From: Rhodopirellula baltica SH 1
Lineage (GTDB): Bacteria; Planctomycetota; Planctomycetia; Pirellulales; Pirellulaceae
Reading direction: 5' to 3'
Assembly: GCF_000196115.1 (NCBI RefSeq)
Contig: NC_005027.1
Location: 4,650,001-4,714,000 of the forward strand
DNA: 64,000 nucleotides
The position numbers and the translations under genes were made by a program. Under the pieces are notes generated by a model, which was not told where the DNA came from, ran no database searches, and saw only the letters and a program-made list of their open reading frames with translations. Of the stretch, positions 38,027 to 40,069 are shown one piece after another. Every line of letters begins with the position of its first letter. Positions within the stretch are counted from its first letter, which is position 1.

Positions 38027-38037
38027 GGATGGACACC

Positions 38038-38784
38038 ATGAAGATCACCCCTGATTTCACGACCACCGTGTCGCCTAGCGACGGCAACGCAATCGTTCGC
38101 AACTCGACTTCCGCATCCGCTTCCGGTCAAACGGTTGCCCAATTAGTGATCGCCGCCCAAGGCGGAGACCAATTGGCATTCGGTGATTTGTTCGAACGCT
38201 ATCGTCCTGTCATTGTCGCATTGGCAATCAGCCGAGTTCGCAACGTGCACGAGGCCGAAGAATTGACGCAAGACGTTTTCATCCAAGCGATGCAAAAGCT
38301 CGATCAACTTCGCGTGCCCGAAGCATTCGGCGGATGGTTGCGTCAAATCGTTCACCGGATGGCAATCAATCGATTCAGCCGGCAACGAACCGCCACCGCG
38401 TGCGATCCAGAAACCCTGGAAGCAACTTGCGTGGATGACATCACGCCTGACAACGTGGCTCAAGATCGCGAGCAAGCCGCGGCGGTTCGAAGTGGCATCG
38501 CACGTCTGGGAAGTCTGGATCGTCAAACGCTCAACGCGTTCTACCTCGATGGACAATCGTTGATCGAGATGAGCGATGCGTTCGACGCTCCAGTCGGAAC
38601 GATCAAGCGGCGTCTGCACACCGCGCGACGCCGATTGGCAGAAACACTGCAAGACGAAATGGCGTTTGGGGATTCGGCGGACAACAGCGCCGACGAATCC
38701 CCCGCCGTCTTGCCGATGCCGTCGGCTCGTGAACGGTCGGATGACTCGATCGGTGATTCCACCCTGATCGCTCAAGCGGTTTGA
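38038..38784 (+). CDS. ECF-type RNA polymerase sigma factor
   Basis: 248 aa from an ATG at 38038, nine bases after GGAGG; the ATG at 38029 touches the Shine-Dalgarno and is unlikely. A disordered N-terminal 30 residues precedes the sigma region 2 (LVIAAQGGDQLAFGDLFERY; NVHEAEELTQDVFIQAMQKL; WLRQIVHRMAINRFSRQR) and region 4 (LGSLDRQTLNAFYLDGQSLI; FDAPVGTIKRRLHTARRRLA). About 45 C-terminal residues are Ser/Asp-rich. No anti-sigma gene lies beside it, which is common for planctomycete ECF proteins. The long leader with a hairpin at the ribosome binding site points to translational control. Confidence 0.93.
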   Translation: MKITPDFTTTVSPSDGNAIVRNSTSASASGQTVAQLVIAAQGGDQLAFGDLFERYRPVIVALAISRVRNVHEAEELTQDVFIQAMQKLDQLRVPEAFGGWLRQIVHRMAINRFSRQRTATACDPETLEATCVDDITPDNVAQDREQAAAVRSGIARLGSLDRQTLNAFYLDGQSLIEMSDAFDAPVGTIKRRLHTARRRLAETLQDEMAFGDSADNSADESPAVLPMPSARERSDDSIGDSTLIAQAV

Positions 38785-39065: not shown

Positions 39066-39094
39066 TTGACTCCAATGGAGTAAACCCATCTACT
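39066..39094 (+). promoter_or_regulatory. Promoter candidate for the CsrA-REC gene
   Basis: TTGACT (39066-39071), a 17-bp spacer and TCTACT (39089-39094); 5/6 and 4/6 matches to the housekeeping consensus. The start site would be near 39101, leaving a leader of about 168 nt before the ATG at 39269. Confidence 0.45.
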
Positions 39095-39103
39095 CCCATG
39101 GAG
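39069..39103. promoter_or_regulatory. Paired palindromic operator-like sites over the promoter
   Basis: ACTCCA-A-TGGAGT (39069-39081) is a perfect palindrome around one base. ACTCCCATGGAG (39092-39103) repeats it with one change and a lost arm base. Their starts are 23 bp apart, close to two helical turns. The first overlaps the -35 box and the second the -10 box of the promoter candidate, the classical layout of a repressor site. Confidence 0.55.
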
Positions 39104-39268
39104 AGGTAGCAGTGATTCCAGGATTGGGATCAAAAAACTGTCAATGGAATGGGGCAACTCTTCTCACGAATCTTCAAGCAAGGTTGACGTGATCCGGCGG
39201 GATTCGCGAGGTTTTTTGGGGGTCGACTTATACAGTCGATGCCCACGCAACGAGACGGAGTTCCAGGC

Positions 39269-40069
39269 ATGTTGTTACTATCACGAAAACCGGGCGAAGC
39301 CATCGTATTCCCAAGCTTGGGAATCACGATCAATGTGACGCGGGCATCTGCAAGAACGGCCACGATCGGAATCGACGCGCCGCCCGAGATTCGCATCCTT
39401 CGAAAAGAGCTATGCAACTGGGCAGTTGAAGAAGCCTTTGATGTTGCAAGTTTCGAGCAAAATTTCGGGAACGTGAAGCTCGAACTGCACCAGCTTCGAA
39501 ATCATTTGAACACGCTGAATTTGGGGCTTCAACTCTATCGCCAGCAAATGGATGCGGGGCTGAAAGAGGCAGCGGACCGAACGTTTTTGAAGGTCATGCA
39601 TCAACTCGATTGTCTTGAGCGAAACTTCGGAAAGCGCGCCGAAGCCATCGACGCACAGATGGAAAATTTGAACCTCCATAGTTCGGTCAAATTGCTGCTG
39701 GTTGAAGACGATGCTGACGAACGTGACTTTTTGGCTGGCATCCTTTCAATGCGTGGCTGCGTTGTCGATTGCGTCGCGAGTGGCAATGCCGCCATCAGCT
39801 ATCTGAACAGTAACGAATCACCCGATTACGTCCTGCTGGACATGCAGATGGCGGACGGCGATGGTGCCTCGACGATCCGACAATTGCGACAATGCGAAGC
39901 GTCAAAGAACATTCGAATCGTTGCGACCAGCGGAAAGTCTCCCTGCGACTATGGAGTCGCGGAAGGTCCAACGGGATTCGATCGCTGGTTTGCAAAGCCA
40001 CTCAATACGGACGGTCTGCTGCGTTACATCCAATCCGATGAAAACAGCATCAAGCCATTGGCCTGCTAG
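39269..40069 (+). CDS. CsrA-response regulator fusion protein
   Basis: 266 aa from an ATG at 39269 with GGAG eight bases upstream; an ATG at 39239 would add 10 residues before the CsrA start. Residues 1-48 form a CsrA domain (MLLLSRKPGEAIVFPSLGIT; ATIGIDAPPEIRILRKEL) with the RNA-contact Leu4 and Arg45 equivalent to Leu4 and Arg44 of E. coli CsrA. Residues about 55-135 are helical (LELHQLRNHLNTLNLGLQLY) and resemble a dimerisation bundle. Residues 140-258 are a receiver domain with all key residues: Asp147, Asp148, phospho-acceptor Asp191, Thr220 and Lys243. Phosphorylation may control RNA binding. A GGA lies in its own Shine-Dalgarno, so autoregulation is possible. No histidine kinase gene is nearby. 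Confidence 0.9.
   Translation: MLLLSRKPGEAIVFPSLGITINVTRASARTATIGIDAPPEIRILRKELCNWAVEEAFDVASFEQNFGNVKLELHQLRNHLNTLNLGLQLYRQQMDAGLKEAADRTFLKVMHQLDCLERNFGKRAEAIDAQMENLNLHSSVKLLLVEDDADERDFLAGILSMRGCVVDCVASGNAAISYLNSNESPDYVLLDMQMADGDGASTIRQLRQCEASKNIRIVATSGKSPCDYGVAEGPTGFDRWFAKPLNTDGLLRYIQSDENSIKPLAC

Follow-up and report, generated by a model that had tools for sequence, protein, structure and literature searches.

A CsrA-receiver protein with a kinase-like helical middle in Rhodopirellula baltica, and a possible phosphorelay route to translational control

The window analyzed here is a stretch of 64,000 nucleotides from Rhodopirellula baltica SH 1 (NC_005027.1, positions 4,650,001 to 4,714,000). 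A single open frame on its forward strand at 39269-40069, stop included, encodes a protein of 266 amino acids in which a CsrA domain, a helical middle and a receiver domain follow one another, as supported by Pfam and by an alignment of 91 family members. An alternative in-frame ATG lies 30 bases upstream at 39239; the start at 39269 is preferred because of the CsrA homology and the GGAG at 39257-39260. Just upstream on the same strand is an ECF-type sigma factor gene (38029-38784), and an esterase is also among the neighbors. Using Pfam, residues 1-51 (39269-39421, forward strand) matched CsrA (PF02599) with 50.5 bits against a cut-off of 27 (E 2.1e-13), and residues 143-254 (39695-40030, forward strand), also recognized by Foldseek, matched Response_reg (PF00072) with 57 bits against a cut-off of 30.2 (E 2.6e-15). 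The CsrA domain keeps L4, R6, R45 and E47; the receiver keeps E146/D147, S221, K243 and the phosphoacceptor D191, whose codon occupies 39839-39841 of the forward strand. An earlier note, made from the sequence alone, had read the N terminus as CsrA with its RNA-contact residues and the C terminus as a receiver with all key residues, and both assignments were borne out. The NCBIfam csrA equivalog model scored 32.4 bits, under its cut-off of 70.1, and residues 14-15 are FP instead of the IG found in RsmE and E. coli CsrA. Among the six CsrA matches in the R. baltica genome, that of the window gene is the sole one joined to a receiver.

An AlphaFold2 model produced from the 91 family members (single chain, mean pLDDT 87, pTM 0.58) consists of CsrA-like strands, two long helices at residues 59-95 and 99-134, and then the receiver. 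The pLDDT of the hairpin was 92-98 for residues 81-120 and 86 for residues 71-80, and lower outside. When the whole model was submitted to Foldseek, nearly all of the best 50 rows were receiver structures; the middle alone retrieved nothing at E up to 0.001. Neither HATPase_c nor Hpt (PF01627) gave a Pfam match in the window protein at E up to 1, and it is the receiver that comes after the two helices.

In the family alignment, which includes the window protein and excludes three short CsrA-receiver proteins, R6 and R45 (R44 in E. coli numbering) were present in 91 of 91 members and L4 in 82, while the receiver residues were kept at D147 in 86, D191 in 90, position 221 (S or T) in 89 and K243 in 87. 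The fusion protein of R. europaea 6C is 88% identical to the window protein, and dN/dS between the two genes is 0.13. An artificial fusion from sequencing or assembly, or a decaying gene, might explain why the distribution is patchy, with a match in 6 of the 13 listed genomes of the same genus, two of them at 32-34% identity only. The 91 members of the same layout and the dN/dS of 0.13 rule this out, and we give it practically no weight. Thus the two doubts that the earlier note had raised, that a CsrA profile might fail to match and that two genes might have been joined by error, did not hold against the Pfam matches and the 91 members.

A scan of genome contigs gave seven relatives, namely one fusion (Rhodopirellula europaea) and six receiver-only matches. 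Of the 199 sampled genomes of the window's family, 88 had a match at E up to 1e-12. Most of the matches listed span from residue 1 or 2 to beyond 190, with up to four per genome, and some are to the receiver only or to a part. Across 392 genomes of the phylum, CsrA plus middle was found in at least 9 genomes of one further family (f4), at least one genome of a family of the same class (f5) and at least one of a family of the same order (f2); in the f2 gene (L174) CsrA and receiver were matched and the middle profile was not. Outside the class, the matches listed end by about residue 76 and are CsrA alone. Within the sampled genomes, the fusion looks confined to one class of Planctomycetes. CsrA-receiver proteins of 186-190 amino acids that have no middle were also found (L058:2079-2648, L059:8923-9492 and L242:13351-13920); the last is the same gene as L061:9566-10147 and adjoins a non-hybrid kinase of 1113 amino acids.

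The middle (39443-39670, forward strand) is a helical hairpin that appears DHp-like by AlphaFold2, profile comparison and structural alignment. The description of it in the earlier note, as resembling a dimerisation bundle, was incomplete, as a conserved box, H-x-L-R-N-x-L-N (HQLRNHLN in the window protein), is present that resembles the phosphoacceptor box of histidine kinases. Four residues of the box (His, Arg, Asn and Leu) stand out as the best conserved in a middle that is variable elsewhere: Arg77 is found in 79 of 91 members, Asn78 in 66, Leu80 in 77, and His74, the proposed phospho-carrier (codon 39488-39490, forward strand), in 73, which is the unbiased count, the subset alignments of 62 and 53 of the 91 rows having been chosen for His74, with some near-duplicates dropped. 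Of the 73 His-bearing members, 69 have R at H+3 and 63 have N at H+4; the kinases of the same loci have the consensus H-[ED]-L-R-N-P-L, and 64 of their DHp rows carry the H in 63, the R in 49 and the N in 42. Position H+1 is acidic in only 26 of the 73 His-bearing middles, compared with all 64 kinase rows. The Pro that follows the box in 60 of these 64 rows is lost in the middles. The acidic residue at H+1 serves autophosphorylation in kinases. Since it is kept in a minority of the middles and the ATPase domain is absent, we take the middle to be a DHp of the carrier type rather than a kinase, and have not filed it under HisKA. With this box, the middle would more probably serve phosphotransfer as well as dimerisation.

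The Pfam family that matched most middles was HisKA (PF00512; 18 of 62 with E values of 10 or less, the lowest being 2.9e-4), its cut-off was reached by no middle, the best of 10 full proteins scored 21.1 bits against 26.9, and the window protein itself had no Pfam match to it. SPOB_a matched 7 of the 62 middles (best E 0.017). Caudo_TAP, which matched five of the 62, was taken as chance although its best E value of 4.8e-5 is better than that of HisKA, which means that single-sequence E values of this size are no proof. Pentatricopeptide and designed-helix matches of the middle profile covered short stretches without the H-box and were set aside. A profile-profile comparison of the middle with 20 kinase DHp sequences, picked by their H-box pattern, gave an E value of 5.9e-9 and a score of 42.8; among 50 controls with permuted columns, the best reached 0.0028 and 16.35. 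A kinase-derived DHp profile, from a set itself picked with a profile built from those 20 sequences, reached at least 8 bits in 21 of 78 His-bearing and 0 of 28 His-less middles, and in none of 1060 shuffles, 106 reversed sequences or 2000 random windows. Four fusion proteins scored 15 bits or more with the kinase DHp profile, and the middle of the window protein only 2.1 bits. With the H-box masked, 0 of the 78 His-bearing middles reached 8 bits, so that the match is short and nearly all of the sequence signal lies in the box. When the middle profile was used to search the R. baltica genome, the best non-self match was a kinase DHp, in register (E 0.024). Structural comparison of the middle with VIA-align placed the DHp of HK853 in the top three rows (Z 7.8, 7.6 and 7.5), with a best rmsd of 2.2 over 78 residues in gapless spans; unrelated helical proteins came next, from Z 7.5 downwards. 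Rows that differ by less than 1 count as tied, and Z values of this size are common among helical bundles, so that the Z alone proves little. In this superposition H74 falls on residue 260 of HK853, its phosphoacceptor (an entry title names H260A).

A histidine kinase is the immediate neighbor of 58 of the 109 CsrA-receiver genes in the regions fetched, a count in which no duplicates were removed and close relatives (L170/L171, L167/L185) stand separately; the remaining 51, the window gene included, have no kinase neighbor. For the first 68 genes counted, 44 had a kinase neighbor, and the four relative orientations accounted for 16, 15, 9 and 7 kinase neighbors. In the 7.15 Mb of the R. baltica genome HATPase_c is matched 49 times, or roughly once every 146 kb, and adjacency by chance would be expected for a few per cent of genes. 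Both adjacency and the state of the His were taken from our own ORF calls and profiles. Genes with the His adjoin a hybrid kinase in 48 cases, a non-hybrid kinase in one, a kinase truncated by a contig end in one and none in 28; genes without it adjoin a hybrid kinase in one case (L206), a non-hybrid kinase in six and none in 21; and those lacking the middle adjoin no hybrid kinase, one non-hybrid kinase and none in two cases. Of the 49 genes beside a hybrid kinase, then, 48 have the His, and of the 7 beside a non-hybrid one, 6 lack it. The same division runs through five loci with two paralogues each (L041, L043, L044, L071 and L075), where the His-bearing copy lies by the hybrid kinase and the His-less copy by the non-hybrid one. 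A tree of the 109 rows requires at least 9 changes at the His, 2 at Asp191 and 3 in the hybrid state; the starred branches hold two independent contrasts of His against hybrid state, one of which agrees while the other involves the same kinase type. Since the independent contrasts are few, the finding that the carrier His follows hybrid-kinase neighbors is suggestive, not proven. Five of the kinases were scanned for domains: two were CheB-CheR-PAS-HisKA-HATPase-receiver hybrids, a third had the same layout without the receiver, the fourth was a short hybrid with DUF4118, and the fifth was a HAMP kinase that lacks a receiver. None of the three hybrids scanned contained an Hpt domain.

The earlier note had suggested that the covalent link to a receiver could place mRNA binding directly under kinase control. 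The coupling is real and conserved, and the kinase neighbors of 58 of the 109 genes support kinase control; because the middle has a conserved H-box, however, a His-Asp relay is likelier than a plain step from kinase to receiver. The plain step deserves attention all the same. A kinase or a free Hpt protein would then load Asp191 directly, and the middle would be only a dimerisation stalk, whose H-box is a remnant or helps to dephosphorylate Asp191. The His is absent from 28 of 106 middles, 20 of which retain Asp191, and this together with the proteins that have no middle (L058, L059 and the gene found in both L061 and L242) indicates that the proteins can do without a relay His. Moreover, N at H+4 coincides with the position of a known kinase phosphatase residue, and the R. 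baltica genome holds seven Hpt matches from which phosphate might come. Such a regulator does not readily explain why the box His, Arg, Asn and Leu should be the top conserved residues of a variable middle, nor why the His tracks hybrid-kinase neighbors, few as the independent contrasts are, and we regard it as possible but somewhat doubtful. Two clades that lack Asp191 (8 genes: L213-L218, L186 and L210; an alignment gap at that position in 6 of the 8) also lack His74 and keep the CsrA part, and are perhaps phosphorylation-independent versions. Neither the window gene nor its R. europaea ortholog has a kinase neighbor; no partner kinase is named for the window gene, the best CheB-CheR-type matches of the genome being at other loci.

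The leaders of the fusion genes were analyzed for ANGGA, the core motif of CsrA sites. Over 200 nt, which 90 of the 91 leaders were long enough to provide, the mean was 2.24 sense motifs, versus 0.67 in 384 control genes with intergenic leaders (Mann-Whitney p 1e-25) and 0.70 over all 579 control genes; the antisense count of 0.74 in the fusion leaders equals background. ANGGA ranked first of 256 xNyzw patterns in these leaders. The excess held in 60 leaders without a shared 14-mer (mean 2.07, p 5e-17) and after removal of the last 20 bases (1.42 versus 0.56, p 3e-13), control start codons having been set mechanically, which biases a comparison over -20 to 0. Kinase genes of the same loci showed no enrichment (0.58, 79 genes), and 15 clusters with at least six ANGGA in 200 nt were present in 2.37 Mb of strand. 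An ANGGA occupies the ribosome-binding position in 68 of 90 fusion genes. Between -200 and +30, folding predicted the GGA to lie inside a hairpin loop for 29% of the 220 sites, versus 15% of 1100 sites with shuffled flanks. At upstream sites the stem pairs (-3,8) and (-2,7) could form in 73 and 78 of 118 cases, versus shuffle means of 49 and 52, and exceeded all 1000 shuffles, with the off-register pairs (-3,7) and (-2,8) at shuffle level. At ribosome-binding sites the same pairs formed in 49 and 55 of 73 cases (means 40 and 41), (-3,8) only tying the best shuffle; off-register pairs exceeded the shuffles there too, so that pairing at these sites is not specific.

In the window, a predicted CsrA site lies at the ribosome-binding site (39252-39263, forward strand), with the ANGGA at 39255-39259, the loop ACGGAG and a 3-bp GAG/UUC stem. 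Loop and stem are kept, in the form GAA-ACGGA(G/A)-UUC, in R. europaea and two other aligned relatives (L010, L011 and L012) and not in a fourth (L039). Three further ANGGA motifs occur in the leader on the same strand (39075, 39098 and 39144, within 39075-39148), of which only that at 39144 is also present in the R. europaea leader. Single-sequence folding did not place the motifs of the window's four sites in loops: the 39252-39263 stem was not favored, and two of the upstream sites folded with GGA in a stem. No Rfam match was found in the window, and hence no known CsrB-like RNA there. According to PMC7652899, CsrA proteins recognize hexaloops of the form ANGGAN, and translation of csrA is repressed by its own product. 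Together with the ANGGA-rich leaders, this makes it very probable, on the strength of nucleotide patterns, that the fusion mRNAs are CsrA-regulated, and the fusion protein may itself be the regulator.

The CsrA fold might alternatively serve as a dimerisation or protein-binding module that does not bind RNA, the leaders being targets of a stand-alone CsrA of the same cell. Five other CsrA matches exist in the R. baltica genome, and the leaders of 18 stand-alone planctomycete csrA genes (L001-L004, L114-L119, L121-L128) carry ANGGA too (1.89 sense versus 0.61 antisense), often at -9 to -17. The RNA-binding face argues against it, as R45 and R6 are invariant in the fusion family and L4 is found in 82 of 91, and we consider it improbable. 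In PMC7652899, R44 and L4 are given as residues critical for RNA binding by CsrA.

The domains, the conserved His, Asp and RNA-contact residues, the H-box, the predicted hairpin, the kinase neighbors and the ANGGA leaders were all found by computation. From them we infer, with a probability of roughly 55%, a regulator of translation that terminates a His-Asp phosphorelay and binds its own leader. The dimeric CsrA domain would bind GGA sites in mRNA leaders, its own included, and the middle would form a two-helix stalk, likewise dimeric, that is built like a kinase DHp and lacks the ATPase domain. His74 would take phosphate from the receiver of a hybrid histidine kinase and hand it to Asp191 of the C-terminal receiver, and phosphorylated Asp191 would alter the grip of the CsrA dimer on RNA, with self-repression acting through the protein's own mRNA. 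That the protein dimerises, that phosphate is transferred and in this direction, that RNA binding is affected and that the protein represses itself are each proposed steps, and the window protein, which has no adjacent kinase, would presumably work like its relatives. A broader proposition, which we hold tentatively and at slightly under even odds, is that one Planctomycetes class uses a one-protein relay output (carrier His, Asp and CsrA) fed by hybrid kinases, often of the CheB-CheR type, in which phosphorylation of the CsrA protein rather than sRNA decoys sets translation, the protein's own mRNA is gated, and kinase type and carrier His co-evolve. If true, a CsrA that ends a phosphorelay would be a direct switch from kinase to translation in 88 of 199 sampled family genomes, and the prediction comes down to one His, one Asp and one leader site.

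Spo0B and ChpT are DHp-type phosphotransferases that, like the proposed carrier, relay phosphate between receivers through a His on a helical hairpin without an active kinase; unlike it they occur as proteins of their own, with a degenerate ATPase domain, whereas the proposed carrier would share one chain with its target receiver and the output. To our knowledge, E. coli CsrA is not a response regulator. PMC12471899 calls it an orphan response regulator. The window protein resembles CsrA/RsmA/RsmE (PF02599) in its domain at residues 1-51, over the cut-off, and in the R44 and L4 equivalents, and its gene has an ANGGA at the ribosome-binding site, as csrA-type autoregulation (PMC7652899) would lead one to expect. 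The same paper presents CsrA proteins as usually small, stand-alone and controlled by sRNAs or by FliW/CesT, unlike the present fusion to a receiver and a DHp-like middle, with FP at residues 14-15. ANTAR regulators (AmiR, NasR and EutV) likewise join a sensor or receiver to an RNA-binding output but differ in the RNA-binding domain and in their antitermination mode, and the portions available of PMC3369931 and PMC12471899 name no DHp-like carrier in them. That CsrA is normally stand-alone, as the earlier note had it, is true of most genes; yet the combination with a receiver is already listed, beside ANTAR, as an RNA-binding response-regulator output in PMC2222644, which cites a census (its ref. 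12); the passage concerned is silent on any middle domain, partner kinase, leader sites or function of the CsrA type. CsrA does not occur in the main text of the phosphorelay census PMC4558063, and the literature searched, which leaves most subscription journals outside, held no account of the function of a CsrA-receiver fusion. As far as this search extends, the domain combination was known, and the relay reading and the leader sites are new.

Several loci had further features. Clusters with two fusion paralogues, a hybrid and a non-hybrid kinase were seen at L041, L043, L044 and L071 (with about 11 kb between the two fusion genes at L071), and that at L043 also holds a CheB-CheR-PAS protein without a kinase domain. 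In the R. baltica genome, a stand-alone csrA at C1:2302684 lies approximately 5 kb from a frame of 1647 amino acids (C1:2307998-2312797), which contains the best match in that genome to the partner kinase of a relative. At L145:6334-6669 (forward strand), between a fusion gene and a hybrid kinase, a free-standing ORF of 112 residues without a Pfam match resembles the middle, has the box HAWNNLLN, and is possibly a stand-alone carrier protein.
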